Origin: Bradyrhizobium canariense
Lineage (GTDB): Bacteria; Pseudomonadota; Alphaproteobacteria; Rhizobiales; Xanthobacteraceae
DNA length: 64,000 nt
Reading direction: 5' to 3'
Assembly (NCBI RefSeq): GCF_900105125.1
Contig: NZ_LT629750.1
Span: forward strand, 3,844,001 to 3,908,000
Part shown: one piece after another, positions 2,615 to 16,316 of the stretch
Position numbering within the stretch: position 1 is the first letter of the stretch
How the letters are laid out: every line of letters begins with the position of its first letter
The notes under the pieces: model-generated
Told to the model about the DNA's origin: nothing
Databases searched by the model: none
The model's input: the letters and a program-made list of their open reading frames with translations, nothing else
Made by a program: the position numbers and the translations under genes

Positions 2615-4279
2615 TCAATTCACCGAATTATTGACCACCACCTCGATCAATTTCGTTCCAGGCCTGCTGAACGCCGACGACAATGTGGACTTCAACTCCT
2701 TGGGGTCGGTGACCTTGATTGCCTCCAGCCCGAGCGATTTTGCGATACCGGTGAAATCCACCGGCGGATCGACAAAATCCATGCCGACATAATGATCGTC
2801 GCCGTGAAACGCCAGCAACCGCTGCTTGATGATGCGATAGCCGCCATTGTTCACGATGATGAAAGTCAGCGGCAGCTTGTGATTGGCCGCGGTCCACAGC
2901 GCCTGGATCGAATACATCGAACTGCCGTCGCCGGAGAAGCACACCACCGGCCGGTCGGGATTTGCCAGGCTCACACCGACCGAAGCCGGAAGTCCCCAGC
3001 CGATGCCGCCGGATGCAAGCGCGTGATAACCGTAGCGATCGCGGTGCGGACGCAGCGCGGTTATCTGTCGCGAGGATGTCAGGCCTTCATCGACAAGAAT
3101 GGCATTCTCGGGCATCGCTTCGACCACCTGCAACGCCAACCAGTCCGGATCGATCGGCGAGCGATCCCTTGCTTTGGATATCTCTTCGACCAGCACCTTG
3201 CGCCGCACGGTCCAGTTCTTCGACGCCAGCGCGGCGATACCCTGTTTGGCGCGGGCTTCGAGCGCTGAGCCGCCCGCGGCCTTCAGTGCCGGGATCAATG
3301 CACGGAGCGTTTCCTTCACATCGGCTTTCAGCGCGATCTCGGCGCCATAATTCTTGGCAAGGTCCCAGTCGACCAGGCCGACCTGAACGATGGACATCCC
3401 ATCGGGCAACGGGTCGACCTCGCTATAGACAGACATGCGCAAGGGATCGGCGCCAAGCACGATCATCAGATCGTACGGCGACAGCACGTCGCGAACCTGC
3501 TTCTGCAGGCGTGACAGCGCGCCCATGAAGCACGGGCTTTCCGACAGGAATTGCGCGCCATAAGGCGTCGAGCACTGATAGGCGGGAGCGCCGAGCGTCG
3601 CCGCCAGCGCAGCGGCTTCCTGCAGCGCATCGCTTTTCACGATCTCGTCGCCCGCGATGATGACCGGATTTTGCGCCCGGAGGATACGCTGCGCCAGCGC
3701 CTGCAAGGATTCATCGGAAGGCCTGACGCGCGCATCAACGCGGGTCGAGCGGCCGAGTTCGATGCCGGCTTCCGCGTTGAGGATATCACCGGGCAGCGAA
3801 ATAAACACCGGCCCGGTCGGCGGCGTGGTCGCGATCTTGGCGGCGCGGCGCACGATACGTGGCAGGTCTTCCAGACGCGTGACTTCGACGGCCCATTTCA
3901 CCAACGGCTCGGCCATCTGCACCAGCGGCCCGTACAGCACCGGCTCCATCAACCCATGACCCTGCTCCTGCTGGCCGGCAGTCAGGATCATCGGCGTGCC
4001 CGTGAACTTGGCATTGAACAGCGAACCCATCGCATTGCCGAGCCCCGGCGCGACGTGGACGTTGCAGGCGACGAGGCGCCCGGAGGCGCGGCTGTAGCCA
4101 TCGGCGATCGCGACCACCAGGCTTTCCTGCATCGCCATCACATAGGTGAGATCGGGATGATCCTTGAGGGCGTGCATGATCGGCAGCTCGGTGGTGCCGG
4201 GATTGCCGAACAGATGCGTAATTCCCTCGTCCTTGAGCAAGGCGAGGAACGCCGAGCGCCCGGTGATGCGATTCTTCAT
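2615..4279 (-). CDS. Thiamine diphosphate-dependent enzyme, benzoylformate decarboxylase-like
   Basis: This 554-residue protein has the three-domain architecture of ThDP decarboxylases. The N-terminal pyrimidine-binding domain carries GNPGTTELP at residues 25-33 and the catalytic Glu52 in MQES. The central domain is NAD/FAD-fold-like, and the C-terminal PP domain has GDGSSMYS followed about 25 residues later by NNGGY (Mg-ThDP motif). The GNPG-x-x-ELP and VH-x-A-x-G-x-GNAMG blocks are closer to benzoylformate decarboxylase (MdlC) than to acetolactate synthase, which suggests decarboxylation of a 2-oxo acid with an aromatic or branched chain. The ATG at 4279 follows GGAGGAGA. An in-frame upstream start (4327) has no ribosome site. 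The exact substrate is uncertain. Confidence 0.85.
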   Translation of the reverse strand: MKNRITGRSAFLALLKDEGITHLFGNPGTTELPIMHALKDHPDLTYVMAMQESLVVAIADGYSRASGRLVACNVHVAPGLGNAMGSLFNAKFTGTPMILTAGQQEQGHGLMEPVLYGPLVQMAEPLVKWAVEVTRLEDLPRIVRRAAKIATTPPTGPVFISLPGDILNAEAGIELGRSTRVDARVRPSDESLQALAQRILRAQNPVIIAGDEIVKSDALQEAAALAATLGAPAYQCSTPYGAQFLSESPCFMGALSRLQKQVRDVLSPYDLMIVLGADPLRMSVYSEVDPLPDGMSIVQVGLVDWDLAKNYGAEIALKADVKETLRALIPALKAAGGSALEARAKQGIAALASKNWTVRRKVLVEEISKARDRSPIDPDWLALQVVEAMPENAILVDEGLTSSRQITALRPHRDRYGYHALASGGIGWGLPASVGVSLANPDRPVVCFSGDGSSMYSIQALWTAANHKLPLTFIIVNNGGYRIIKQRLLAFHGDDHYVGMDFVDPPVDFTGIAKSLGLEAIKVTDPKELKSTLSSAFSRPGTKLIEVVVNNSVN

Positions 4280-4603
4280 ATGTCTCCTCCAGCCCGCGGC
4301 CGTTGCCGCCGGGATCGGCGACAACATGGCCGATCTCCGAGGGTAAGATCAATGGAGGCCAATCATGGCTGCCCTGCGCTGCCGGGAGCGATGGCACCCG
4401 CCAAGGTGCGGTCAGGACCAGGAATGCATAAAACAGGCAGGATCTTTTGGGGCGCGCTCACCTCGCCGCCGATCGGGCCTGGCTCAATACGACCTGCGAA
4501 ACTCGCGACCGCCGCGCAACGGCTCGATCGGGCTTTTGCGGGTTTGGAGGGATACGAAATGAGGGCAGGCTAACCGGCGCATAAAATTCAACAGAGACGT
4601 TGG
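4280..4603. other. Intergenic region, no supported gene
   Basis: This stretch lies between two minus-strand genes. A plus-strand frame of 65 codons starts at 4365 after a GGAGG-like sequence, but its Arg-rich translation has no recognisable features and it runs against both neighbours. I do not call it. The promoter of the ThDP enzyme presumably lies at the left end. Confidence 0.4.
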
Positions 4604-5086
4604 CTAGAACATCCCTTCACGGTCGATGCGCTTCTTCTTTTTCGAACGTTGCCAGACCACACCGGGAAAACCTTTCAGCGGCACCAGCGGCTCGCCGGTA
4701 TAGGCCCATTCCTGCAATTCCTCGATCGCGAGATGGTAGAGCGGTTGCCGGCCGGTCCGGGCCGAGAGCAGCGCGCGCGAAATATTCACCATGTGTGGTG
4801 AACGCGCACGTTCGTAAAACAGCGGCGTGCCGCAATGCGCACAGAAACTCCGTGCGATCTTTGAAGTCTTGTCCTCGTAACGGGTGATATTGGCGTCGCC
4901 TTTGGTGATGCGGAATCGTTTGCGCCAGCTTCCGACATAGGTGGCGTAAGCAGCGCCATGCGCGCGGCGGCTTGCTGCCGAATGATCGTGAAAGGCCCAG
5001 CGGGCCGGGACATCGATCTCGAAGCAGACCTTGCCGCACAGGCATTGGCCGGTCGCGATACCTGCTGTTCTGGCTGCTTTTGCCAT
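4604..5086 (-). CDS. GFA/CENP-V-fold protein with degenerate zinc site
   Basis: The 160-residue product resembles glutathione-dependent formaldehyde-activating (GFA) family proteins, small zinc proteins of the Mss4-like fold. The first ligand pair is present as C15-x-C17-G, and the last pair as C82-A-H-C85-G-T-P. The central CHC-x-x-C motif expected near residues 33-38 reads H33-D-H-S-A-A-S39, so two or three conserved cysteines are gone although the following R-R-A-x-G-A is kept. The C-terminus ends in a Lys-rich tail (RSKKKKRIDREG). The ATG at 5086 follows GAGGAACG. The fold call is firm; catalysis as in classical GFA enzymes is doubtful because of the missing ligands. Confidence 0.75.
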   Translation of the reverse strand: MAKAARTAGIATGQCLCGKVCFEIDVPARWAFHDHSAASRRAHGAAYATYVGSWRKRFRITKGDANITRYEDKTSKIARSFCAHCGTPLFYERARSPHMVNISRALLSARTGRQPLYHLAIEELQEWAYTGEPLVPLKGFPGVVWQRSKKKKRIDREGMF

Positions 5087-5097
5087 TTACGTTCCTC

Positions 5098-5180
5098 GTC
5101 ATTCCGGGGCGATGCGGTAGCATCGAACCCGGAATCTCGAGGTTCCGGGTTCGCTCGTTTCACTCGCGCCCCGGAACGAC
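5098..5180. repeat. Palindromic intergenic repeat, family A, copy 2
   Basis: It starts GTCATTCCGGGG and ends CCCCGGAACGAC, with the internal ACCCGGAATCTCGAGGTTCC hairpin of the family. It lies just upstream of the GFA-fold gene and downstream of the old yellow enzyme gene, between two minus-strand units. Confidence 0.85.
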
Positions 5181-5209
5181 GGCCTCATCCGTATCGCCTC
5201 GCAGTGACG

Positions 5210-6337
5210 TCACGCCTGCTCCAGTTCGTCATGCTCAGGATAATCGGTATAGCCCGTCTCCTCGCCCCCATAGAAAGTTGCCCGATTGTAGGGCGTCAGC
5301 TGGTATCCGCGCGCGAGGCGGCGCGGCAAATCCGGGTTTGAAATGAAGATACGCCCGAACGCGATCGCATCGGCGTGACCGGCGGCAATCGCGGCTTCCG
5401 CGGTTTCGCCGGTAAAACCGCCGGCGGTAATCAGCTTGCCGCTCCAGATCGGCCGAAACAGCACCATCGCCGAAGGCACGTTCTGATGGTTGACCTCGGC
5501 CCGCCCTGCCCCGCTTGAGCGCGGCTCGATGAAATGCAGATAGGCAAGACCAAGCGGATCGAGCGACTTGATGACATGGGTGTAAAGCGGCATCGGATCG
5601 GCCTCGCCGCTGTCGTTGGCGATGCCATAGGGCGACAGCCGCACGCCGACGCGGTCGGCGCCCCAGATTTCGATCACGGCACGCGTGACCTCCATCAGGA
5701 AGCGCGCGCGGTTCTCGATCGATCCGCCATATTGGTCGGTGCGCAGATTGGTGCGCGATTGCAGGAATTGTTCGATCAGATAGCCATTGGCGCCATGGAT
5801 TTCGACGCCATCGAACCCGGCCGCGAGCGCGTTGCGCGCGCCTTGCCGATAGGCCTCGATGACGCTCGCGATCTCGCCGGTCTCGAGCGCCCGGGGCGTC
5901 TCATATTGCGCGGGCTTTCCGTCCGCCGTCATCGTCTTCAGTTCTGCCGAGATCGGCACCGCCGACGGCGCAACCGGCAAGGCACCTCCGGGCTGCAACG
6001 AGGAATGCGAGACGCGCCCGACATGCCAGAGCTGGAGGAAGATCACACCACCCTTGTCATGAACTGCATCGACAACCTGGCGCCAGCCGTCGATCTGCGC
6101 GTCCGAATAAATGCCGGGGACGCCGGGATTGCCGAATCCCGTCGCTATGACCGGCGAGGCTTCCGCGATGATCAGGCCGCCCGGCGTGGCGCGCTGGCTG
6201 TAATATTCCACATTGAGCGGCCGCGGCGCGAGGCTCGGTTTCGCCGCCCGCATTCGCGTCAACGGCGCCATCACGATGCGATGCCTGAGCTGGTAGGGTC
6301 CGATCTGCAGCGGTGAAAACAGCAAAGGGTATTTCAT
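5210..6337 (-). CDS. Old yellow enzyme family NADH:flavin oxidoreductase (NemA-like)
   Basis: The product (375 residues) is an FMN-dependent ene-reductase of the old yellow enzyme family, which reduces activated C=C bonds or nitro groups with NAD(P)H. Recognisable blocks are the N-terminal LFSPLQIGPYQLRHRIVMAP with LTRMRA, LQLWHVGRVSH (FMN and substrate His region), GFDGVEIHGANGYLIEQFL, RTDQYGGSIENRARF and the FMN phosphate region AFGRIFISNPDLPRR. The family length is about 360-370. The start at 6337 is chosen because MKYPLLFSPLQIG opens the fold; upstream in-frame Mets (to 6412) would overlap the promoter of the divergent regulator. The ribosome site is modest (GGGGCAGG). Confidence 0.9.
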   Translation of the reverse strand: MKYPLLFSPLQIGPYQLRHRIVMAPLTRMRAAKPSLAPRPLNVEYYSQRATPGGLIIAEASPVIATGFGNPGVPGIYSDAQIDGWRQVVDAVHDKGGVIFLQLWHVGRVSHSSLQPGGALPVAPSAVPISAELKTMTADGKPAQYETPRALETGEIASVIEAYRQGARNALAAGFDGVEIHGANGYLIEQFLQSRTNLRTDQYGGSIENRARFLMEVTRAVIEIWGADRVGVRLSPYGIANDSGEADPMPLYTHVIKSLDPLGLAYLHFIEPRSSGAGRAEVNHQNVPSAMVLFRPIWSGKLITAGGFTGETAEAAIAAGHADAIAFGRIFISNPDLPRRLARGYQLTPYNRATFYGGEETGYTDYPEHDELEQA

Positions 6338-6445
6338 GCCTGCCCCAAAAAGATTTTCTGTCGTCTGGATATGGTACCGGTTCATCTTGTTCGCAAAAGG
6401 CTTCAGTGGCAATCTGCCATCACAGACCGACAGAGCAAGTTATCC

Positions 6446-6829
6446 ATGCAGAAATCCAGCGACAGGGCGCTTCCGTCCCTCAGTGTTCGCATCGACCTTG
6501 ACGCGGAGGGCCGCATCGGGCCGGGCAAGATCCAGTTGCTGGAAAACATTCACGCCTGCGGCTCGATTTCGGCTGCCGGGCGCGCGATGGACATGTCCTA
6601 TAAGCGGGCATGGGATCTGGTGGACGAGATCAATCGCATCTGCCGCCATGCCGCGGTCGAACGCCAGACCGGCGGCAAGAACGGCGGCGGCGCCGTGCTG
6701 ACGCCATTCGGCGTCTCGCTGGTCGCGCGTTACCGCAAGATCGAGCGCGACGCGGCTAGCGCGGTCAAGAAGGAACTCGCGGCCTTGCGGTCCGACATCG
6801 GACGGCCGAAGAAAAGCGCAAGCCGGTAA
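6446..6829 (+). CDS. ModE-type winged-helix regulator (DNA-binding domain only)
   Basis: The 127-residue protein matches the N-terminal LysR-like winged-helix domain of ModE: GPGKIQLLENIHACGSISAAGRAMDMSYKRAW is the helix-turn-helix, followed by GGKNGGGAVLTPFG in the wing. It stops after about 125 residues, so the molybdate-binding Mop domains of full ModE are absent. Such single-domain proteins may regulate molybdenum-linked genes or respond to other signals. It diverges from the old yellow enzyme gene, about 108 bases apart. A lone ModA-like gene lies at 11.7 kb and a DUF2478 gene at 16.8 kb. A molybdenum role is an inference from these. Confidence 0.82.
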   Translation: MQKSSDRALPSLSVRIDLDAEGRIGPGKIQLLENIHACGSISAAGRAMDMSYKRAWDLVDEINRICRHAAVERQTGGKNGGGAVLTPFGVSLVARYRKIERDAASAVKKELAALRSDIGRPKKSASR

Positions 6830-6855
6830 GAATCGTATCGACGAGAAAAAGGAAA

Positions 6856-6883
6856 GGGAGTGGCAGCCAAAACCGCCACTCCC
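6856..6883 (-). terminator. Rho-independent-type terminator between convergent genes
   Basis: A 9-base stem GGGAGTGGC/GCCACTCCC with a 10-base loop lies between the convergent ModE-like and aldehyde dehydrogenase genes. Read on the minus strand it is followed by a pyrimidine run CTTTCCTTTTTC, so it best serves the aldehyde dehydrogenase transcript. Confidence 0.65.
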
Positions 6884-6907
6884 GAATGTAACAACGCTTG
6901 CGGTTGC

Positions 6908-8404
6908 CTAGCCGGTCTTGATCCAGACCGCCTTGACGTTGAGATATTCTTCCAGGTGCTGCTTGCCTGACTCACGGCCATAGCCGCTCATCTTATAGCC
7001 GCCGAACGGCACCGCTGGATCCATCGCCTGATAGCAATTGACCCAGACCGAGCCGGCGCGGAGCGCCTTCGCGACCTGATGCGCCTTGCTGACATTAGTG
7101 GTCCAGACACCGCTGCCCAACCCGAAGGACGTGGCATTGGCACGCTGGATCAGATCGTCGCCGTCCTTGAACGAAATCGCCGAAATCACCGGTCCGAAGA
7201 TTTCTTCCTGCGCGATCCGCATGTTGTCCTGGACGTCGGCGAATACGGTCGGCGGCACGAAGTACCCCTTCGACAGCGCACCCTCGGTCAGCCTGGCGCC
7301 GCCGGCGAGCGCCTTGGCGCCTTCCTTCTGGCCGATGGCGAGGTAACCGGACACACGCTCCAACTGCTGCTCCGACACCAGCGGTCCGATCTGCGTATTG
7401 GGATCGAGGCCGTTGCCGACCTGCAGCTTCTTGCCATATTCGGCAACGCGGCCGACGAACTCGTCATAGATCTTGTGCTCGACGAACAGGCGGGTGCCTG
7501 CGCTGCAGATCTGGCCGGAATTGGCGAACACCGCCATCGCCGCGCCCGGGACCGCCTGATCGAGATCGGCATCGGCGAACACGATGTCAGGCGATTTGCC
7601 GCCAAGCTCGAGCGACACGCGCTTGAGGTTGCCGGCCGAAGCCCTGATGATCGACTGCCCCGTGACGTGCGAACCGGTGAAGGCGACCTTGTCGACACCG
7701 GAATGCGAGGCAAGGGCCGCGCCCGCGGTTTCGCCATATCCCGGCACCACGTTGACGACTCCAGGCGGAATGCCTGCTTCCATCGCGAGTTCCGCCAGAC
7801 GTAATGAGGTCAGCGGCGCCTCTTCCGCCGGTTTGAGGATCACGGTGCAGCCGGTCGCGATCGCGGGGCCGATCTTCCAGACGCTGGCGCCGAGCGGACC
7901 GTTCCAGGGAATGATGGCGCCGACGACGCCGACGGGCTCCTTCAGCGTGTAGGAGAAGACCTCGCCGGGCAGCGAGTTCTCGATGGTCTCACCGAGCAGC
8001 GAGGTCGCCTGCCCCGCGTAATACCGGAGCATGCCGAGCACGCGCAGCTTGTTGCCGCGGGTGCGGCTGATCGGCGCGCCCATGTCGAGGGTGTCGAGCT
8101 GCGAAAGTTCTTCAAAATTCTTCTCGACCAGATCGGCGAGCTTGAGCAGCAGGGCCTGCCGCTCGAACGGCTTGACCTTGCTCCACGGTCCTTCGAAGGC
8201 GCGGCGTGCGGCGGCAACGGCGCGATTGATATCCTCCGCGTCGCCCTCGGCCACCGTCGCCAGCAATTCGCCGGTCGCGGGATTATGCGTCTCGAATTTC
8301 TTGCCGGAAGCAGCGTCCACCCATTTGCCGTCGATCAGCATTTTCTTGTAGGAACCATCCGCATAAGGATGGCGCGTTATCGGAATCGCTTGCGTCACAG
8401 CCAT
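6908..8404 (-). CDS. NAD(P)+-dependent aldehyde dehydrogenase
   Basis: This 498-residue enzyme oxidises an aldehyde to an acid in the cytosol. It carries the standard ALDH features: PWNGPLGASVWKIGPA and KPAEEAPLTSL of the NAD fold, FTGSHVTGQSI, the general base Glu in LELGGKSPD, and the catalytic Cys in NSGQICSAG around residue 300. The C-terminal oligomerisation strand PFGGYKMSGYGRE is also present. The start at 8404 is preceded by GGGAG. The frame remains open upstream to 8500 but reads through promoter-like AT-rich DNA. The coding strand has the motif AATATAACGA 49 bases before the ATG, shared with two other units here. Closest type: betaine/vanillin/phenylacetaldehyde ALDHs; substrate not deducible. 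Confidence 0.92.
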   Translation of the reverse strand: MAVTQAIPITRHPYADGSYKKMLIDGKWVDAASGKKFETHNPATGELLATVAEGDAEDINRAVAAARRAFEGPWSKVKPFERQALLLKLADLVEKNFEELSQLDTLDMGAPISRTRGNKLRVLGMLRYYAGQATSLLGETIENSLPGEVFSYTLKEPVGVVGAIIPWNGPLGASVWKIGPAIATGCTVILKPAEEAPLTSLRLAELAMEAGIPPGVVNVVPGYGETAGAALASHSGVDKVAFTGSHVTGQSIIRASAGNLKRVSLELGGKSPDIVFADADLDQAVPGAAMAVFANSGQICSAGTRLFVEHKIYDEFVGRVAEYGKKLQVGNGLDPNTQIGPLVSEQQLERVSGYLAIGQKEGAKALAGGARLTEGALSKGYFVPPTVFADVQDNMRIAQEEIFGPVISAISFKDGDDLIQRANATSFGLGSGVWTTNVSKAHQVAKALRAGSVWVNCYQAMDPAVPFGGYKMSGYGRESGKQHLEEYLNVKAVWIKTG

Positions 8405-8453
8405 GTCTGCACTCCCTTGAGATCGACCGGTAATATATCGGCCGGCATTCGGA

Positions 8454-8463
8454 TCGTTATATT
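8454..8463 (-). promoter_or_regulatory. AATATAACGA motif, copy 1 (upstream of aldehyde dehydrogenase)
   Basis: The minus strand reads AATATAACGA exactly as at 13024-13033 and 13141-13150, each on the coding strand of the next gene. Here the minus strand also offers a sigma70-like pair, TTTACG and TACAAT spaced by 17 bases, just upstream of the motif. The motif would then lie near or after the transcription start and could be an operator. Confidence 0.45.
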
Positions 8464-8612
8464 CAAAATTGTACAACGGCTGCGCGAAACCGTAAAGCAC
8501 GCTCGCCGTTTGTAGAGAGCGTCAAACGAAGACCTCCCATGCCGTTTCGTACGTGGCGGTCAGATCGTGTTAGCCTAGTTAGTGTTGCCACATTTTCGTC
8601 CGGAGAACGCCC

Positions 8613-9464
8613 GTGCCACATGCCGCGATTTCGCCAAACAATGTTGCCGTAATCACCGGAGGTGCTTCCGGCATTGGACTCGCCGCCGCGATACGGTTTG
8701 GCCGCCTCGGCATGAAAGTCTGCATCGCCGATCTCGGGACCAACCGCCTCGCCGAAGCTGCAACGAAATTGTCATCTGTGGCGACAGGCGGCCCCGACAG
8801 CATCATGGTGGCGGCCGTTGACGTCAGCCGTGCCGAAGACGTCGCGGGGCTGGAAAGCGCAGTACAAAAACGCTTCGGCGGCACCGATATCCTGATGAAC
8901 AATGCCGGCGTTCAGCCCGGCAGCAAGATGTTCGGTCCATCGGAGAATTGGCAGCGCGTTCTCGCTGTCAACCTCTGGGGCGTCATCAACGGTTCGCAGG
9001 TGTTCGCACCGCACATGATCGAACGCGGGCGGCCGGGCCTGATCATCAATACCGGCTCCAAGCAGGGCATCACCACGCCTCCCGGCGACCCCGCCTACAA
9101 CGTTTCCAAGGCGGGTGTGAAAGCCTTCACGGAAGCGCTGCAACACGAATTGCGAAACGCGGAAGGCAGCCAGATCAGCGCGCATCTGCTGATCCCCGGT
9201 TTCGTCTTCACCGGCCTTACCGCCAAGGGCCGCACCGAGAAGCCGGCCGGCGCCTGGACGCCGGAGCAGACCGTCGACTTCATGATCGAAGGTATCAACG
9301 CTGGGGATTTTTATATCCTGTGTCCGGACAATGATGTGCCGAGGAAGCTCGATGAGCGGCGCATCCTGTGGGCGGCGGGTGACATCGTCGAGAACCGGCC
9401 GGCACTTTCGCGATGGCATCCTGATTACGCGGAAGCTTTTGCTAAATTTGTGAAGAAGAAGTAG
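8613..9464 (+). CDS. SDR family oxidoreductase
   Basis: This 283-residue classical short-chain dehydrogenase has the Rossmann motif T-G-G-A-S-G-I-G at residues 15-22, the NNAG strand (MNNAGVQPGS) and a catalytic tetrad around TGSKQG and Y-N-V-S-K (Tyr-x3-Lys near residues 155-159). The C-terminus is longer than usual and ends in a Lys-rich tail. It starts at GTG 8613 after a GGAG site. It stands alone on the plus strand, convergent with the orphan pqqA. The substrate is unknown; an alcohol or carbonyl from the neighbouring oxidation genes is a guess. Confidence 0.87.
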   Translation: MPHAAISPNNVAVITGGASGIGLAAAIRFGRLGMKVCIADLGTNRLAEAATKLSSVATGGPDSIMVAAVDVSRAEDVAGLESAVQKRFGGTDILMNNAGVQPGSKMFGPSENWQRVLAVNLWGVINGSQVFAPHMIERGRPGLIINTGSKQGITTPPGDPAYNVSKAGVKAFTEALQHELRNAEGSQISAHLLIPGFVFTGLTAKGRTEKPAGAWTPEQTVDFMIEGINAGDFYILCPDNDVPRKLDERRILWAAGDIVENRPALSRWHPDYAEAFAKFVKKK

Positions 9465-9543
9465 CTGAAAACGCCGCGACTCCAGCAACGGCAACACAAA
9501 ATGTGTGGCGTTTCCGGAGCCGGGCCAGTGGTTGCGAAGTCTC

Positions 9544-9624
9544 TTACTTGCGCGCTGCGCAAGCGTACATGTTGATTTCCATGCCGACCGGCACTTCAAC
9601 GATCTTCGGTGCTTTCCAGGCCAT
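9544..9624 (-). CDS. pqqA: PqqA, precursor peptide of pyrroloquinoline quinone (orphan copy)
   Basis: The 26-residue peptide begins MAWKAPKIVEVPVG and has the diagnostic Glu16-x3-Tyr20 pair (E-I-N-M-Y), the two residues that PqqE cross-links to build the PQQ skeleton. It ends C-A-A-R-K. The ATG at 9624 follows a GGAG site by about 8 bases. PqqA is the ribosomal substrate for PqqD/PqqE/PqqF and is normally first in pqqABCDE. Here the minus strand downstream runs into a convergent SDR gene and no pqqB-E gene is in the window, so this is a stand-alone copy. It is divergent from a PQQ-dependent sorbosone-type dehydrogenase gene, which fits extra PQQ supply for that enzyme (inference). Confidence 0.93.
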   Translation of the reverse strand: MAWKAPKIVEVPVGMEINMYACAARK

Positions 9625-9969
9625 TTTGAGATCTCCAGCTGTTTGCGGCGTGAACGCCGAACGCCGGCGAAGCTACGTCCACGAGCGAAATATCGCAAGC
9701 GTGCGTTGCGGCATCGATCGTTCACCCTAGATAGCTAAACTAAGGAAATGCCGGTCGTCGAACTTCCGCTCCCGCTTTGAAAATGCGGAAGAATTACGGG
9801 CCCGGTCGCTCTCCACAGGCGACGCCGATCGCGTGACCGCCGGGCCGTCATTTCTTCCTCCATATAACGCCTGCCATTTGACAATACGCCTGACCAGCGC
9901 ATTGATAGCGGTATTCCCCGACAGCGGGTGATCACCCGTTAGAATTGGGGGCATCCAAGGGAGGCATCC
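9625..9969. other. Divergent pqqA / sorbosone dehydrogenase control region
   Basis: These 345 bases hold the promoters of pqqA (leftward) and the PQQ enzyme (rightward). A 14-base perfect palindrome lies at 9925-9938. No additional gene is supported; short open frames on either strand lack ribosome sites. Confidence 0.5.
9925..9938. promoter_or_regulatory. Perfect palindrome CGGGTGATCACCCG, candidate operator
   Basis: The 14-base palindrome sits 31 bases upstream of the sorbosone dehydrogenase ATG (9970), between the likely promoter and the GGGAGG ribosome site. It has no loop, as expected for a dimeric regulator site rather than a terminator. The regulator is unknown. Confidence 0.4.
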
Positions 9970-11238
9970 ATGAAGCTTCATTTGCTAGCGACGGTGGCTA
10001 TCTCAACGCTGGCCGCATGGCCGGCTGCTGCACAGCCGGCGCCGCCGGCTCCGAACGCACTCGACACATTAGGCGCGATGCATCAGACCGGCAGCACGGC
10101 TGATTGGCCTGAAGTCCCGCAGACCGGCCAGAAAGCCGATCAGGTCAAGCAAAACCTTACCAAAATCAAGCTGCCTCCGGGCTTCCACATCTCGCTCTAC
10201 GCGCTGGTGCCGGACGCCCGCCATATTGCGGTCGGCCCGCAGGGCGTCGCAACCTTTGTGGGCACACGCAAGTCGAAGGTCTGGGTGGTGACCGATCGCT
10301 CGCGCGGCGGCGTGGGTGACGAGGTGAAGGAGTTCGCGCCGACCCTGCCGAAGAAAATTCCCAACGGCGTGTGCTTCTCGAAAGACGGCTTCCTGTACAT
10401 CGCGGAGCAGAATCGCGTGCTGGAATACGCCGCCGCCGAGTTCTTCTATGAAAGCGCCGACGTCGTCGCAGGCGCCGTCGTACCCGAGGGCGAGCTGATC
10501 CCGAAATCCGAGGAGAGCTACAACCATACTGCGCGGGTCTGCAGAGTCGGACCGGACAACAAGCTCTATATTCAGCTGGGCCAACCCTACAACGTGCCGG
10601 CAAAGGACAAGTTCGACCTTTATCGCAAGGTCGGCATGGGCGGAATCATCCGCATGGATCGCGACGGCAAGAATCGCGAGGTCTACGCGGTGGGGCTCCG
10701 CAATCCGGTCGGCATGGACTTCAGCCCGAAGGACAAGTCGCTCTGGACCAACGACAACCAGGTCGACGGCATGGGTGACGAACAGCCGCCCGGTGAGATG
10801 GATCACATCACCGCGCCGGGTCAGGATTTCGGCTTTCCCTGGTATGGCGGTGGTCATACCCGGACCGTGGAGTACAAGAACGACACCCCGCCCGCCAATG
10901 TGGTGTTTCCTGAAGTCGAACAGGCGGCCCATGCGGCGGACCTCGGCCTCATCTTCTACACCGGCTCGATGTTCCCCAAGAAATATCAGGGCGCCATTTT
11001 CTCGACCCAGCATGGTTCCTGGAATCGGACCACGCCGGTTGGCGCACGGCTATTGGTCACCTACGTCAAGGAGGATGGCCATGTCGCGGGAAAATCCGAG
11101 CCGTTCGCGGAGGGCTGGAACGACAACGGCTATTATCTCGGCCGTCCCGTCGACGTCGCGCAATTGCCCGATGGCTCGCTGCTGGTCTCGGACGATCTCG
11201 TTGGTGCGCTGTATCGCATCTGGTACGACGGCAAATAA
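9970..11238 (+). CDS. PQQ-dependent sugar dehydrogenase, sorbosone dehydrogenase family
   Basis: The 422-residue product is an exported beta-propeller dehydrogenase of the L-sorbosone/soluble glucose dehydrogenase family, oxidising an aldose or aldehyde with PQQ in the periplasm. A signal peptide (residues 1-21, ending AAA-QPA) is followed by the domain, with typical propeller blocks ALVPDARHIAVGPQG, VYAVGLRNPVGMDFSP, LWTNDNQVDGMGDE and the C-terminal HGSWNRTTPVGARL and PDGSLLVSDDLVGALYRI. A GGGAGG ribosome site precedes the ATG. The next gene encodes a c-type cytochrome, the likely electron acceptor, and an orphan pqqA is divergent. The substrate cannot be read from sequence. Confidence 0.9.
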   Translation: MKLHLLATVAISTLAAWPAAAQPAPPAPNALDTLGAMHQTGSTADWPEVPQTGQKADQVKQNLTKIKLPPGFHISLYALVPDARHIAVGPQGVATFVGTRKSKVWVVTDRSRGGVGDEVKEFAPTLPKKIPNGVCFSKDGFLYIAEQNRVLEYAAAEFFYESADVVAGAVVPEGELIPKSEESYNHTARVCRVGPDNKLYIQLGQPYNVPAKDKFDLYRKVGMGGIIRMDRDGKNREVYAVGLRNPVGMDFSPKDKSLWTNDNQVDGMGDEQPPGEMDHITAPGQDFGFPWYGGGHTRTVEYKNDTPPANVVFPEVEQAAHAADLGLIFYTGSMFPKKYQGAIFSTQHGSWNRTTPVGARLLVTYVKEDGHVAGKSEPFAEGWNDNGYYLGRPVDVAQLPDGSLLVSDDLVGALYRIWYDGK

Positions 11239-11314
11239 TGATCTGAGATCGATGGATGGCTCCCTGATCGGGAGCCATTCACCTTTTCACGCGACAGGCT
11301 CACGAGGGTTTAAA

Positions 11315-11671
11315 GTGATTTCGCCACATCCAGGGACGACCCCGGTGATCGTCCGGCTGATTGCTTCGGTTTGTCTGCTCGCGGCAGGCGGCAGCATGTG
11401 CAGTGCCGGCGACATCAAGGCCGGCCGCACCAAGGCGCTGATGTGCCAGGCCTGTCATGGCCTCGACGGGCTATCGAAAACCCCGGACGCGCCGAACATC
11501 GCCGGTCAAACCGAGCCATATCTCGTTACCCAACTGCAGGCATTCAAATCCGGCACGCGAAAGAACGACGCGATGTCGGTGGTTGCGCCATCGCTGTCCG
11601 ACGCCGATATCGAAGACCTCGCCGCCTATTTTTCGGCGATCGAGATCACCGTCGGCAAGCTCCCGCAATAG
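11315..11671 (+). CDS. Class I c-type cytochrome, single haem
   Basis: A GTG start at 11315 after GAGGG gives a 118-residue exported protein with a hydrophobic signal stretch (residues 11-29) and a haem site C-Q-A-C-H near residue 47. An LSDADIEDLAAYFSAI helix near the C-terminus is typical of the cytochrome c553/c4 fold. The axial Met is probably M in NDAMSVVAP. It lies 76 bases after the PQQ dehydrogenase on the same strand and is its probable electron partner. A later GTG (11345) is an alternative start that leaves a shorter signal peptide. Confidence 0.85.
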   Translation: MISPHPGTTPVIVRLIASVCLLAAGGSMCSAGDIKAGRTKALMCQACHGLDGLSKTPDAPNIAGQTEPYLVTQLQAFKSGTRKNDAMSVVAPSLSDADIEDLAAYFSAIEITVGKLPQ

Positions 11672-11683
11672 GCGCGATCTGGA

Positions 11684-12487
11684 TTATGGCGCGGCCGGCA
11701 GCGCGACCGGAATAAAGCCATACGACTTCAGCGTCGCCTGCCCCTGCGGCGACAACAGATACATCGCGAAATCGGCGCCGCCGGGCTGCGCCTTGCGTGA
11801 GACCGTCAGGCCGTATTCGGGGCCGACGGAAAGCTCCGGCGGTAGTCCGACCGATTTGTAGTTCGGCGAGGTTCTGACGATCTCGCGTGCGCCTGAACAA
11901 TAATAAATGAACAGATCGATCTGGTGATCATCGAGCGCGACCAGCAGTCGCGGACGCCCGTTGACTGGAGTCGTTATCGCGGGACCGCCGAATAATTGCT
12001 GCGCCTTACCGGAAAGCGTTTGGAAAGCGCCGGGCCGGATCGCGTCGATCTTGCGAAACATCTCCCAGGTGTAGTCGCCGGCCGGATCGGAAACCGGCGT
12101 CGATGTGCCTATCTTGATATCAGGCCTCAGCAGCGTCTCGACCAGACTGCCGCTGTCGACCACACTGTCGGCCATGGTCACGACGCACAGGGCATTGCGC
12201 GCGAACATCACGCTCGGACCGGATATACCGGCATCGGTCAGGACCTGCGCGTGAGGCAACGCGGCCGAAGCGAAGACATCGAACGCCTCGCCCTTTTGCA
12301 GACGTTCGCGCAGCACGCCGGATGGTCCCCACACTGGGGCGAAGCTGCTGCCGTATTGTTTGCTGAAATCGGCGAAAACAGCCGTGAAGGCGTCCTTCAG
12401 GCTGCCGGCCGCCATGACGCGGATATCTGTCGCGGACGCGGACGACGAAGCCAACCCAATCATGACCGCCACCAGCCAGGCACGCAT
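11684..12487 (-). CDS. ModA-like molybdate/anion-binding protein, no permease nearby
   Basis: This 267-residue exported binding protein is of the ModA/WtpA type (SBP_bac_11). A signal peptide (residues 1-20, ASSSASA) is followed by the signature AAGSLKDAFTAVFADF, then GPSGVLRERLQKGEAFDVFASA and TSP-x-x-x-P/D-P-type STPVSDPAGDYTWEMF. These are the oxyanion-contacting loops. modB and modC are not present, so it is a lone binding protein. The start at 12487 (MRAWLVAV) is chosen because upstream residues in the open frame are translated from an intergenic palindromic repeat. It runs convergently into the cytochrome c gene. Molybdate is the default ligand; other anions are possible. Confidence 0.82.
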   Translation of the reverse strand: MRAWLVAVMIGLASSSASATDIRVMAAGSLKDAFTAVFADFSKQYGSSFAPVWGPSGVLRERLQKGEAFDVFASAALPHAQVLTDAGISGPSVMFARNALCVVTMADSVVDSGSLVETLLRPDIKIGTSTPVSDPAGDYTWEMFRKIDAIRPGAFQTLSGKAQQLFGGPAITTPVNGRPRLLVALDDHQIDLFIYYCSGAREIVRTSPNYKSVGLPPELSVGPEYGLTVSRKAQPGGADFAMYLLSPQGQATLKSYGFIPVALPAAP

Positions 12488-12500
12488 GGAATTATTCCAC

Positions 12501-12578
12501 GTCATTCCGGGATGGTCCGAAGGACCAGACCCGGAATCTCGCGATTCCGGGTTCGTGCTCCGCACGTCCCGGAATGAC
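12501..12578. repeat. Palindromic intergenic repeat, family A, copy 3
   Basis: It runs from GTCATTCCGGGATGG to CCCGGAATGAC, with the ACCCGGAATCTCGCGATTCC centre. It lies immediately upstream of the ModA-like start and extends that open frame artificially. Confidence 0.85.
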
Positions 12579-12620
12579 GATGCATGAAAATTGGCCCCGC
12601 GTCACTTGCCGCAAGGTCGC

Positions 12621-13004
12621 CTAATGCGCCCGGAGCGCCATTTTCTGCGCCGGCTGGGCCACTAAAGCCTCGCCGAGTTCGCTTTGCTGGTCGCGCGGGA
12701 TAGAAAAGCAGACGCTGAAGCCGTCGACGGTACGCAGCGTCACCATGCCCTGCGTGGGATCGGACGATTGCTCGACCACCCATGACGCCAGCGGATATGC
12801 GTAGCGCAGGCTTTGATCGCCAAATCGGGTTTGAAGAGCCTTGTCGATCAATCCCGGCAGGGTCATCGCCAGCGCGCCGACCTGGTTCAGCGATAGCCGG
12901 ATCGTCGCCGGCTTGCCGTTGGAATCGACAAAACCGAGCGAAATGGCGTCGCCATCGGCTGCGACCTCGCAACTGGTGAGCGCCTGGGTTTCGATCTCCA
13001 TCAT
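12621..13004 (-). CDS. Hypothetical protein, 127 residues
   Basis: I do not recognise this family. The protein is soluble and acidic to neutral, with no signal peptide or membrane segment; alternating strands (AISLGFVDSNGKPATIRLSL, GMVTLRTVDGFSVCFSI) suggest a mostly beta fold. Start codons at 13004 and 13001 are both possible; a GGGAG site lies 4-7 bases upstream. Its coding strand has AATATAACGA 19 bases before the start, shared with the divergent aldehyde dehydrogenase, so the two may be co-regulated. Confidence 0.7.
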   Translation of the reverse strand: MMEIETQALTSCEVAADGDAISLGFVDSNGKPATIRLSLNQVGALAMTLPGLIDKALQTRFGDQSLRYAYPLASWVVEQSSDPTQGMVTLRTVDGFSVCFSIPRDQQSELGEALVAQPAQKMALRAH

Positions 13005-13023
13005 CAAGCTCCCGGACCGTTAT

Positions 13024-13033
13024 TCGTTATATT
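13024..13033 (-). promoter_or_regulatory. AATATAACGA motif, copy 2
   Basis: The exact 10-base motif lies on the coding strand of the 12621 gene, preceded eight bases upstream by GATATA. It is one of three copies in front of units of the oxidation island. Confidence 0.45.
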
Positions 13034-13140
13034 CTCTGGAATATATCGCTATCCCGCCGGCCGCGTCCAGCCGGTATTAAAGTCAGCCGGACCGCCGCCG
13101 GACCCGGTAGTCCGCCTCCCGCATTCGTGATATACATAAA

Positions 13141-13150
13141 AATATAACGA
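13141..13150 (+). promoter_or_regulatory. AATATAACGA motif, copy 3 (upstream of aldehyde dehydrogenase)
   Basis: The exact motif lies on the coding strand 39 bases before the ATG at 13190, preceded by GATATA at a spacing of six bases, so it resembles copy 2 over a longer span. Either an operator or an unusual promoter element would fit. Confidence 0.45.
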
Positions 13151-13189
13151 GGCCTATGGAAAAGGTCCGTACACAGGGAGAGCAAAGCC

Positions 13190-14596
13190 ATGAGTGATTT
13201 CAAGCTTCTCATCGACGGCAAGATGGTAGCCGGCGACCAGACCATGCCGGTCCTCAATCCCGCGACCGAAGAGGTGCTGGCGCAATGCCCGCGCGCCTCC
13301 AAGGACCAGCTCAATGCCGCCGTTGCCGCGGCCAAGGCGGCGTTTCCGGCCTGGTCGGCGACCCCGATCGAAGAGCGCCGCAGGCTTGTCACGAAAATGG
13401 CCGACGTCATCGAAGCCAATACCAACGAGCTGGCGCGCCTCCTGACCAGCGAGCAGGGCAAACCGCTCGCGGATGCCACCGGCGAGGTCATGGGCATGGC
13501 CGGCTTCTTCCGCTATCTCAGCTCGCTCGACCTGCCGATGCGCGTGATCGAGGACAGCGGCGATCGCCGCGTTGAGGCCTATCGCCGCCCGCTCGGCGTG
13601 ATCGGCGCCATCATTCCCTGGAACTATCCGCTGCTGATCCTCAGCTTCAAACTGCCTTCCGCGCTCTTGGCCGGCAATACGCTGGTGGTGAAGCCGGCGC
13701 CGACCACCCCGCTGTCGACGCTGAAATTTGCCGAGCTGGTCAAGGATATCCTGCCCAAAGGCGTGTTGAACGTCATTGCCGACGCCAACGATCTCGGCGA
13801 CTTAATGACCAAACATCCCGACATCCGCAAGATCTCCTTCACCGGATCGACCGCGACGGGCCAGAAGGTGATGGCGAACGCAGCAGCGACTTTGAAGCGC
13901 ATCACGCTGGAACTGGGCGGCAACGATGCCAGCATCGTGCTCGACGACGTCGATCCGAAGAAGGTCGCGCCCGGCATTTTCGAAGGCGCGTTCCAGAACT
14001 CGGGCCAGGTCTGCCTCGCCATCAAGCGGCTCTACGTCCACGAGTCGGTCTATGACGAAATCTGCAACGAGCTGGTGGCGATTGCCAAGAACACGGTGGT
14101 CGACGACGGATCGAAACAGGGCACCAAGCTCGGGCCGCTGCAGAACAAGATGCAGTACGAGAAGGTGAAGGGTTTCCTCGAAGACGCGCGCAAGAACGGC
14201 AACGTGATTGCCGGCGGTTCGGCGATGGATCGTCCCGGCTATTTCATCGAGCCGACCATCGTGCGCGACATCAAGGAAGGCTCCAGGCTGGTTGACGAGG
14301 AACAGTTCGGACCGGTGCTGCCGGTGATCAAATATTCCGACAATGAAGACGTGATCCGCCGCGCCAACGCCACCAATTACGGCCTCGGCGCTTCGGTCTG
14401 GTCGTCGGATACCGCGCGCGCCCACAAGATCGCCAGCCGTATCGAGGCTGGAACGGTCTGGATCAACAAGCATCTCGACATGGCGCCGCATATCCCGTTC
14501 GGCGGAGCTAAGCAGTCGGGCATCGGTACCGAATTCGCCGAGGAAGGTCTCGCCGAATTCACCCAGCTCCAGATCATCAACGAAGCACGCACCTAA
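13190..14596 (+). CDS. NAD(P)+-dependent aldehyde dehydrogenase
   Basis: This 468-residue ALDH has all catalytic elements: IPWNYPLLILSFKLPSALLAGN, KPAPTTPLSTL, FTGSTATGQKV, Glu in LELGGNDASIV and Cys in NSGQVCLAIKRLYVH. The C-terminal strand is PFGGAKQSGIGTEF. The short QVCLAIKR variant and GGND resemble aldehyde dehydrogenases that act on small aliphatic or amino-aldehydes, but the substrate is not fixed. The start follows CAGGGAG. It is divergent from the 12621 gene with a shared control region containing two AATATAACGA motifs, and is followed by a strong hairpin and another ALDH gene. Confidence 0.92.
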   Translation: MSDFKLLIDGKMVAGDQTMPVLNPATEEVLAQCPRASKDQLNAAVAAAKAAFPAWSATPIEERRRLVTKMADVIEANTNELARLLTSEQGKPLADATGEVMGMAGFFRYLSSLDLPMRVIEDSGDRRVEAYRRPLGVIGAIIPWNYPLLILSFKLPSALLAGNTLVVKPAPTTPLSTLKFAELVKDILPKGVLNVIADANDLGDLMTKHPDIRKISFTGSTATGQKVMANAAATLKRITLELGGNDASIVLDDVDPKKVAPGIFEGAFQNSGQVCLAIKRLYVHESVYDEICNELVAIAKNTVVDDGSKQGTKLGPLQNKMQYEKVKGFLEDARKNGNVIAGGSAMDRPGYFIEPTIVRDIKEGSRLVDEEQFGPVLPVIKYSDNEDVIRRANATNYGLGASVWSSDTARAHKIASRIEAGTVWINKHLDMAPHIPFGGAKQSGIGTEFAEEGLAEFTQLQIINEART

Positions 14597-14607
14597 CTGA
14601 TGCAGAA

Positions 14608-14634
14608 GACCGCTGCGGCGACGCCGCAGCGGTC
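14608..14634 (+). terminator. Strong hairpin after aldehyde dehydrogenase
   Basis: A perfect 12-base stem GACCGCTGCGGC/GCCGCAGCGGTC with a three-base loop lies 12 bases after the stop codon. No T-run follows, so it may be a transcript-stabilising hairpin or a weak terminator. Confidence 0.5.
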
Positions 14635-14795
14635 AAGCCCGTGACGGAAGTAACTACCGTCGAGCATTTCTTCCGTCGTTTTGGAATTCAGGACAATGCG
14701 TTGCTCGGGTGAGCCGAGCCTGCACAACGCCTAACGCCTCGAAATTCGGCGTCGTTCCTAAAAAACCGGCTAGTTCCGGAACCAGGGAGAATGTC

Positions 14796-16316
14796 ATGTA
14801 TCAAGAAGCGATCGAGAAAGTCTCCAAGCAGGTACTCATCCGAGACCGATACGAAAATTTCATCGGCGGCAAGTGGGTGGCCCCGACGGAAGGGCGCTAC
14901 TTCGACAATCCCAGCCCGATTACGGGCAAGAAACTCTGCTCGGTTCCGCGCTCCTCCGCGGCCGACATCGAGCTGGCGCTGGACGCGGCGCACAAGGCCA
15001 GAGATGCCTGGGGCAAGACGCCGGTGGCCGAGCGCTCCCGCCTGCTGAACAAGATCGCCGACAAACTGGAAGCCAATCTCGACCTGCTGGCGCTGGTCGA
15101 GACGCTGGACAACGGCAAGCCGATCCGCGAGACGACTTATGCGGACATGCCCCTGGTCGTCGATCACTGGCGCTATTTCGCCAGCGTCATACGTGCCCAG
15201 GAAGGCGGCATTTCGGAAATCGATGCCGAGACGGTCGCCTATCACTACCACGAGCCGCTCGGCGTCGTCGGCCAGATCATTCCGTGGAATTTTCCGATCC
15301 TGATGGCGACCTGGAAACTGGCGCCGGCACTTGCCGCGGGCAATTGCGTGGTGCTCAAACCGGCTGAGCAAACGCCGCTCGGCATCCTCGTCGTGATGGA
15401 GCTGATCGCCGATATCCTGCCGCCCGGCGTCGTCAACGTCGTCAACGGTTTTGGTGTCGAGGCCGGCAAGCCTCTGGCGCAAAACAAGCGGATCGCGAAG
15501 ATCGCCTTCACCGGCGAGACCACGACGGGGCGGCTGATTATGCAATACGCGTCCGACAATATCATTCCGGTCACGCTCGAACTCGGCGGCAAGTCGCCGA
15601 ACATCTTCTTTGCCGACGTCGCCGGTGCGGACGATGAGTTTTTCGACAAGGCACTCGAAGGTTTCGCCATGTTCGCCCTCAATCAGGGCGAGGTCTGCAC
15701 CTGCCCCAGTCGTGCGCTGGTTCAGGAGTCGATCTACGACAGGTTCATGGAACGCGCGGTCGCCCGGACCAAGAAGATCAAGCAGGGCCACCCGCTCGAC
15801 GCGACAACCATGATCGGCGCTCAGGCCTCGAACGATCAGCTGGAGAAAATCCTGTCCTATTTCGACATCGGCAAGCAGGAAGGCGCGAAAGTGCTGACCG
15901 GCGGCAAGCGTGCGCAGCTCGGCGGCGAGATCGCCGAGGGCTATTACGTCGAACCGACGATCTTCGAAGGCAACAACAAGATGCGCGTGTTCCAGGAGGA
16001 AATCTTTGGGCCGGTCGTATCGGTGACGAAGTTCAAGGATGAAGACGAGGCCCTCGCCATCGCCAACGACACGCTTTACGGGCTTGGCGCCGGCGTCTGG
16101 ACCCGTAACAGCAATCGCGCCTACAAGTTTGGACGCGCGATCCAGGCCGGTCGCGTATGGACCAACTGCTATCACGCCTACCCGGCCCATGCCGCCTTCG
16201 GCGGCTACAAGGCGTCCGGTATCGGCCGTGAAAACCACAAGATGATGCTCGATCATTATCAGAACACCAAGAACATCCTGGTGAGCTACGGCACCAAGGC
16301 GCTTGGTTTCTTCTAG
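14796..16316 (+). CDS. Aldehyde dehydrogenase, ExaC/AldB/AcoD-like
   Basis: The 506-residue protein belongs to the acetaldehyde-type ALDHs (ExaC of Pseudomonas, AldB of E. coli). It carries [20 protein letters not shown] at the N-terminus, [16 protein letters not shown], the Glu in LELGGKSPN, the catalytic Cys in [15 protein letters not shown] and the C-terminal [11 protein letters not shown]. The double-Cys VCTCPSR block is typical of the subgroup, which in other bacteria works with PQQ ethanol dehydrogenases. The start at 14796 is preceded by GGGAG; upstream in-frame residues (from 14709) look non-coding. A DUF779 gene follows, a common partner of this ALDH type. Likely role: oxidation of acetaldehyde or similar products. 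Confidence 0.92.

Follow-up and report, generated by a model that had tools for sequence, protein, structure and literature searches.

An orphan pqqA divergent from a GSDH-type dehydrogenase gene in Bradyrhizobium canariense probably supplies PQQ precursor in trans

The stretch of Bradyrhizobium canariense DNA analysed here (64,000 nucleotides, hereafter the window) carries a short pqqA gene on the minus strand, divergent from a predicted dehydrogenase gene which is followed by a cytochrome c gene. The relevant features are:

9544..9624, minus strand: orphan pqqA, 26 codons plus stop, with the Glu16/Tyr20 cross-link pair
9633..9636, minus strand: ribosome-binding site of pqqA, GGAG, 9-12 nt upstream of the ATG
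9671..9699, minus strand: promoter-like element of pqqA, CTTGCG-N17-GTAGCT, beginning at -75
9878..9969, plus strand: conserved block before the dehydrogenase gene, with TTGACA at 9878 and the palindrome CGGGTGATCACCCG at 9925-9938
9970..11238, plus strand: GSDH/AA12-like dehydrogenase, 422 aa, PF07995 at 43.8 bits, N-terminal export signal assigned by eye
11315..11671, plus strand: cytochrome c that may accept electrons from the dehydrogenase, PF00034 at 37.1 bits, start GTG at 11315 or 11345

The open reading frame at 9544-9624 translates as MAWKAPKIVEVPVGMEINMYACAARK. Both models of the PqqA family score this peptide above their cut-offs (TIGR02107 of NCBIfam, 46.3 bits, E 2.5e-12, cut-off 20; PF08042 of Pfam, 40 bits, cut-off 21.1), and the Glu-x3-Tyr cross-link pair typical of the family is present as Glu16 and Tyr20. 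The six frames of the window contain 1,032 short stretches (start codon to stop, 20-40 aa, nested starts counted), and no other combines Glu16 with Tyr20, which, together with the TIGR02107 score, rules out a chance open reading frame. Ribosome-binding sites comparable to the GGAG precede most of the 50 pqqA copies listed. A sequence-only reading of this DNA had described the locus as a 26-codon pqqA with the cross-link pair and a ribosome site, and the family models bear this out. In the six pqqA copies that stand beside a dehydrogenase of the window type, changes are mostly synonymous (pooled pN/pS about 0.16 from pairwise comparisons, which are not independent), the most changed copy being that of the metagenome-assembled genome (MAG) locus L092. 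This value and the conserved promoter-like element make a pseudogene unlikely. No Rfam family reached the gathering threshold within 8400-12600, and a generic scan of 9400-10050 returned no terminators. A search of 72,556 plasmid records gave one match at E <= 0.01, a Leisingera pqqA, with a 26-residue query that is weak for this purpose.

The B. canariense genome (7.84 Mb, single contig) contains four pqqA copies, one in an operon and three orphans. The operon is a complete pqqABCDE with all components over cut-off (PqqB 384, PqqC 357, PqqD 79.7, and PqqE 602 bits), and its pqqA, at 6538101, lies 2.7 Mb from the window copy. Counted genome-wide, there is one pqqB (E <= 1e-30) and one pqqE over cut-off, both at 6.53 Mb and outside the window; pqqC and pqqD were identified within the operon. 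We call a pqqA an orphan if it has no maturation genes beside it while such genes are present elsewhere in the genome, as is the case for the window copy. The sequence-only reading had thus correctly placed this pqqA apart from pqqB-E, and the pqqBCDE operon on which its idea depended does exist elsewhere in the genome. It had also spoken of a second, dispersed copy; the gene is a dispersed extra pqqA, but it is one of four copies and not of two. Since the operon is 2.7 Mb away and encodes the identical PqqA peptide, the window copy can act only in trans.

The two other orphans have different surroundings. The one at 2349477 has Calvin-cycle genes (named by eye) on one side and, on the other, an AraC-type regulator together with a gene of the methanol-dehydrogenase family (770 bits). 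The one at 3077460 belongs to a cluster that also encodes TIGR03863 and TIGR03866, both proteins of PQQ-alcohol catabolism, and a PQQ dehydrogenase (630 bits). The layout of the pqqABCDE operon (L008, 9099-11924) is much like that of the window: its pqqA (9099-9179) encodes the identical peptide and, like the window copy, stands divergent from a GSDH-type gene followed by a cytochrome c, that GSDH-type gene being 41 percent identical to the window dehydrogenase. The operon copy differs in that pqqBCDE follow it and in that CTGGCGAAC...TTAGTTTA takes the upstream place of CTTGCG-N17-NTAG. In DNA sequence the window pqqA differs from the operon pqqA at 7 of 81 bases and from an orphan of another genome at 4 of 81. 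These differences and the orphan-type upstream element do not favour a direct recent copy of the operon gene.

The dehydrogenase gene begins 345 bp from pqqA. Its product is recognised by PF07995, the GSDH model of Pfam (43.8 bits, cut-off 25), and also by DUF7133 (30.1 against 27); the Pfam TrAA12 model gave no match at E 0.001. A search of solved structures with the ortholog profile, which consists of 30 rows (two for the window sequence and 28 more, among them 25 orthologs), returned the PQQ sugar dehydrogenases 6i1q (2.3e-13), 6jt5 (5.9e-11), and 2g8s (5.1e-9) among 13 hits at E <= 0.001, one of which (LRP4, 8s9p) is not a PQQ enzyme. With the single protein sequence, the same kind of search was weak (best 0.0018). 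Alignment A1 leaves out L095, L100, and L101, i.e., 3 of the 28 orthologs, and L117, at 26 percent, was not counted as an ortholog. His186, Arg244-Asn245, His348, Arg353, and Arg392 are invariant in all 30 rows, and in the profile alignment to 6i1q and 6jt5 a His and the motifs GLR(N/D), HGS..R, and RPV stand opposite these residues. The AA12 label of the protein and the roles assigned to its invariant residues are our assumption. pqqC is over cut-off in 19 of the 27 genomes with a dehydrogenase ortholog (27 of the 28 ortholog loci were covered). All eight genomes without it are MAGs, and all six that are not titled as MAGs have it. The same 27 genomes yielded pqqA in 15 cases, compared with 50 of 149 genomes for a sample of the order, which includes five genomes of the genus and was searched at a stricter E-value. 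Use of PQQ by the enzyme is probable as judged from its sequence relatives. For the divergent PQQ dehydrogenase that the sequence-only reading had seen here, the divergent arrangement is confirmed, the family is GSDH, and the cofactor is assigned by similarity. A comparable cytochrome c gene follows the dehydrogenase gene in the relatives G052 and G024. The wider surroundings (window 2615-16316) are rich in aldehyde- and aromatic-type metabolism, with a benzoylformate-decarboxylase-like enzyme, aldehyde dehydrogenase genes, and an SDR, and also contain ModE- and ModA-like genes.

Eight dehydrogenase homologs at a level of at least 85 percent are available (the window, G024, G052, and L089 to L093). 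Six of them have an adjacent pqqA, L091 and L093 being the two without. None of 23 orthologs at 61-83 percent has pqqA in the flank examined, where some flanks are short and the detector was built from peptides of this genus; the dehydrogenase thus does not need a neighbouring pqqA. G024 keeps the whole block of neighbours. G052 retains the dehydrogenase, cytochrome c, and pqqA genes, with pqqA flipped, although the other flanks differ, which suggests that this trio has been retained for function. pqqA is divergent from the dehydrogenase gene in the window, G024, and L090 and has the opposite orientation in G052, L089, and L092, pointing in L089 and L092 as the dehydrogenase gene does. In L092, a tRNA-Cys gene (2864-2937) lies just upstream of this pqqA and is a possible integration site. 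L090 contains a second pqqA downstream of the dehydrogenase gene (8015-8095), which differs at 3 of 81 bases from the orphan beside the methanol-dehydrogenase-family gene of the B. canariense genome.

Orphan copies are widespread in the genus. pqqA is present in 115 of 117 genomes sampled, 111 of which have two or more copies; in a sample of the order outside this genus, 23 of 45 pqqA-positive genomes have at least two. For closer analysis, 26 of the 117 genomes were chosen for having 1-3 contigs (G060, G065, G093, G094, G104, and G107, also with 1-3 contigs, were left out). They contain 62 pqqA genes: every genome has one copy next to its single pqqB (26 in all), and the other 36 are orphans, of which each genome has between one and three. 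All 36 orphans preserve the E16/Y20 pair. Linkage was judged against TIGR03075 hits (E <= 1e-60) and matches to the window dehydrogenase (E <= 1e-20), which together average 9.3 per genome. Of the 36 orphans, 24 have a PQQ-dehydrogenase-type gene of this set within 2 kb (0.22 expected and at most 4 in 5,000 random placements), 26 within 10 kb (expected 0.82, maximum 6), and 34 within 25 kb (expected 1.84, maximum 7), the linkage being loose, at 18-22 kb, for eight of them. The association of pqqA with a PQQ-dehydrogenase-type gene that had been noticed at this one locus extends strongly to the orphans of the genus. Closeness is not special to orphans, since 11 of the 26 operon copies have a gene of this set within 2 kb as well. 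In G016, an orphan more than 25 kb away by this comparison stands just upstream of a membrane-bound PQQ glucose-type dehydrogenase gene (TIGR03074, 890 bits), a family outside the comparison, and near the G018 orphan at 1959503 no PQQ dehydrogenase was found.

We grouped the 36 orphans by distances and gene order, with about 18 kb of surroundings covered for 15 of them and the remainder placed by distance and short stretches; genes in the loci of relatives were called with a codon-usage script. The locus types are:

Type 1, 16 orphans: divergent from a TIGR03075 gene, 0.9-1.8 kb away
Type 2, 7 orphans: TIGR03075 gene 18-21 kb away
Type 3, 2 orphans: PQQ-alcohol-catabolism cluster
Type 4, 3 orphans: beside a methanol-dehydrogenase-family gene and Calvin genes
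Type 5, 3 orphans: beside the window-type dehydrogenase gene
Type 6, 2 orphans: beside another GSDH-type gene and a multicopper oxidase gene
Type 7, 2 orphans: next to a gene for a molybdenum enzyme; one of the two has a TIGR03075 gene 1.5 kb away as well
Type 8, 1 orphan: beside a membrane dehydrogenase gene

With about eight locus types behind the 36 linkages, most of which are orthologous, the counts do not represent independent events.

Of the 16 loci of the commonest type, 15 carry a lanmodulin gene 0.2-0.7 kb upstream of pqqA and in the same orientation, with the TIGR03075 PQQ-dehydrogenase gene near (L082 9584-10024, minus strand; L024, L026, L120-L122, and L124-L132). The lanmodulin of G002 scores 186 bits with NF053806 (cut-off 135) and 1.2e-33 with PDB 6mi5. 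The family match was run for L082, and the other loci were assigned by similarity to it.

Most orphans share an upstream sequence that the operon copies lack. The pattern CTTG(CG/AA)-N17-NTA (N16 in one case), starting at -67 to -78, precedes 31 of the 36 orphans of the 26 genomes, while shuffled controls gave a mean of 0.27 and a maximum of 3 in 300 shuffles, and none of the 26 operon copies has it. Most operon copies carry CTGGCGAAC...TAnTTTA at the corresponding place. The element is missing from five orphans, those of the GSDH/multicopper, molybdenum, and membrane-dehydrogenase types. We defined the element on viewing 24 orphan copies, 21 of which have it; it is also present in all of 13 further copies (L120-L132), which are orthologs of the already viewed L082 and thus provide a weak hold-out. 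A stricter version, RCTTGCG-N17-NTAGNTT, has two exact matches in the B. canariense genome, both upstream of an orphan pqqA, one of them being the window copy (9670-9700, minus strand); read backwards, it has three. In the third orphan of this genome the element takes the form CTATCC, which falls outside the stricter pattern. We read the element as resembling a sigma-70-family promoter; a generic scan of 9400-10050 returned no sigma-70 consensus site for the window pqqA.

Multiple pqqA genes have been described before. In Methylorubrum extorquens AM1, which differs in being a methylotroph, the orphans pqqA2 and pqqA3, like the window copy, are dispersed away from the maturation genes; their expression changes with the lanthanide source, fourfold between NdCl3 and Nd2O3, the direction being worded inconsistently in the source (PMC11317620). 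Two pqqA genes of AM1 fall more than pqqBCDE (PMC6414531). Strain RH AL1 has three pqqA copies, lowered with Nd (PMC10848612), strain FJNU-6 has five, three of them separate (PMC9851590), and a Pseudomonas has two (PMC10467086). In M. aquaticum, pqqA1A2 respond to methanol and pqqBCDE respond differently (PMC5784242). Methylophilaceae resemble the window genome in having several pqqA copies, 3-12, and one copy of most other pqq genes, with one extra pqqA located on a genomic island together with extra pqqDE (PMC4109929). The kind of gene found here is thus known from methylotrophs and others. Another case is Methylovorus, a betaproteobacterium, unlike the host of the window. Methylovorus sp. 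MP688 has multiple pqqA as B. canariense does, namely five copies with different responses (Ge et al. 2015, as cited in PMC11317620, PMC9851590, PMC6520949, and PMC10467086). PMC11317620 also cites Methylovorus as a case in which PqqA is rate-determining. Neither a genus-wide linkage of orphans to PQQ-dehydrogenase genes nor a shared upstream element was found in print in searches of the open-licence PMC literature.

We consider it probable, at about 0.7, that the window pqqA is a working orphan copy, i.e., an independent mini-gene whose peptide is processed in trans by the enzymes of the single operon. PqqE, acting with PqqD, joins the Glu and Tyr of PqqA by a cross-link, and each PQQ made consumes one PqqA while the enzymes of the pathway are catalytic. 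Extra pqqA can therefore raise PQQ output without duplication of the pathway. The 26 codons would be expressed from the gene's own promoter-like element and ribosome site, the peptide would be accepted by PqqE and processed by PqqD/PqqE, PqqB, and PqqC of the pqqABCDE operon, and the additional substrate would raise PQQ supply. The linkage to PQQ enzymes may reflect either selection for matched supply or inheritance with a PQQ-enzyme cluster. In this general form, as precursor added in trans, the dosage idea of the sequence-only reading appears to stand.

Its narrower form, in which pqqA and the divergent dehydrogenase gene would be induced jointly and precursor delivered only when that enzyme is made, is not supported and seems improbable. 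The divergent arrangement over 345 bp, kept in G024 and L090, and the general linkage of orphans to PQQ-dehydrogenase-type genes are what such control would predict, and there are precedents for it: PhaR is reported to regulate a pqqA and an exaA that lie apart from each other in B. diazoefficiens (PMC6201568), and RpoE6 to regulate pqqA and exaA fusions jointly in Azospirillum (PMC12826043). Against it, the window pqqA has its own orphan-type element, which differs from the block at 9878-9969; this block is alignable in eight sequences, the window and seven relatives, including L091 and L093, which have no pqqA. For this reason pqqA and the dehydrogenase gene have, as far as their upstream sequences indicate, separate control regions, and no operator common to both was found. 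The opposite pqqA orientation in G052, L089, and L092 also argues against joint control, as does the occurrence of CTTGCG-N17-NTA(G/T) in the 250 nt upstream of just one unrelated gene among the predicted genes of the window and 17 loci. A shared PhaR-type site was considered, using a consensus from the B. diazoefficiens site table (PMC6201568), and 9465-9970 of the window contains no match; the site occurs in 2 of 24 orphans (mean of shuffles 0.26), in 0 of 26 operon copies (mean 0.14), and upstream of 3 of the 9 dehydrogenase genes tested, that of the window not being one of the three. Within the block itself, the 14-bp palindrome is perfect in the window only, the generic scan placed its one sigma-70-like site at 9918-9945 on the plus strand (0.4 expected), and the predicted RNA fold, a hairpin of -23.5 kcal/mol (z -1.6), is not exceptional. 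The palindrome is flanked by CCCC and GGGG.

Common descent is a less remote alternative, though one we hold tentatively: pqqA cassettes would have been inherited or transferred with PQQ-enzyme clusters and expressed singly, so that only the total pqqA dose matters. It would explain why the element is alike whatever the neighbour, why G024 shares a long conserved block, and why pqqA occurs beside close dehydrogenase orthologs only; the trio that G052 keeps amid differing flanks, with pqqA flipped, speaks against it. Both this account and local control are narrower forms of the supply of precursor in trans, so their odds are not exclusive of it. It is quite unlikely, by comparison, that the orphan peptide serves a purpose other than that of PQQ precursor, for instance in the handling of lanthanides. 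Involvement of PqqA in lanthanide uptake has been suggested for M. extorquens (PMC11317620), and lanmodulin genes accompany the commonest orphan type, but no lanmodulin match was found in the window, and conservation of E16/Y20 in every orphan is as expected of PqqE substrates. That the window copy is a decayed, untranscribed duplicate is the least credible account, given its conserved reading frame with mostly synonymous changes and the conserved promoter-like element and ribosome site.

Beyond the window copy, the genus orphan may be a modular supply cassette of about 160 bp (element, ribosome site, and 26 codons), placed and kept beside PQQ dehydrogenases of at least two families and often beside lanmodulin, which would tune precursor supply through copies tied to PQQ enzymes. 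We offer this generalisation as a speculative one. The two families are the TIGR03075 alcohol/methanol type, in several locus kinds, and the GSDH type of the window; one further orphan, without the element, stands before a TIGR03074 membrane dehydrogenase gene. The broader question is why a genome has several pqqA genes and one set of PQQ-making enzymes. The genus makes this question testable, with two or more pqqA in nearly all genomes sampled, orphans mostly near PQQ-enzyme genes, and a recognisable upstream element. PQQ-dependent enzymes not yet recognised as such may also be easier to spot by an orphan pqqA in their neighbourhood.

Some further PqqA-like sequences stand out. Those at L079 (8998-9093) and L081 (about 8770-8850) extend further at the C-terminus; both are located next to a molybdenum hydroxylase-type gene, and neither has the shared promoter-like element. 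In G126, G133, G139, and G142, pqqC is over cut-off and TIGR02107 gave no match at E 0.05, which points to a divergent or unrecognised PqqA. L080 contains a PqqA-like core (8768-8824, minus strand) just upstream of a membrane-bound PQQ dehydrogenase gene; it keeps the Glu and Tyr, has no nearby ATG, and lies inside a longer open frame.
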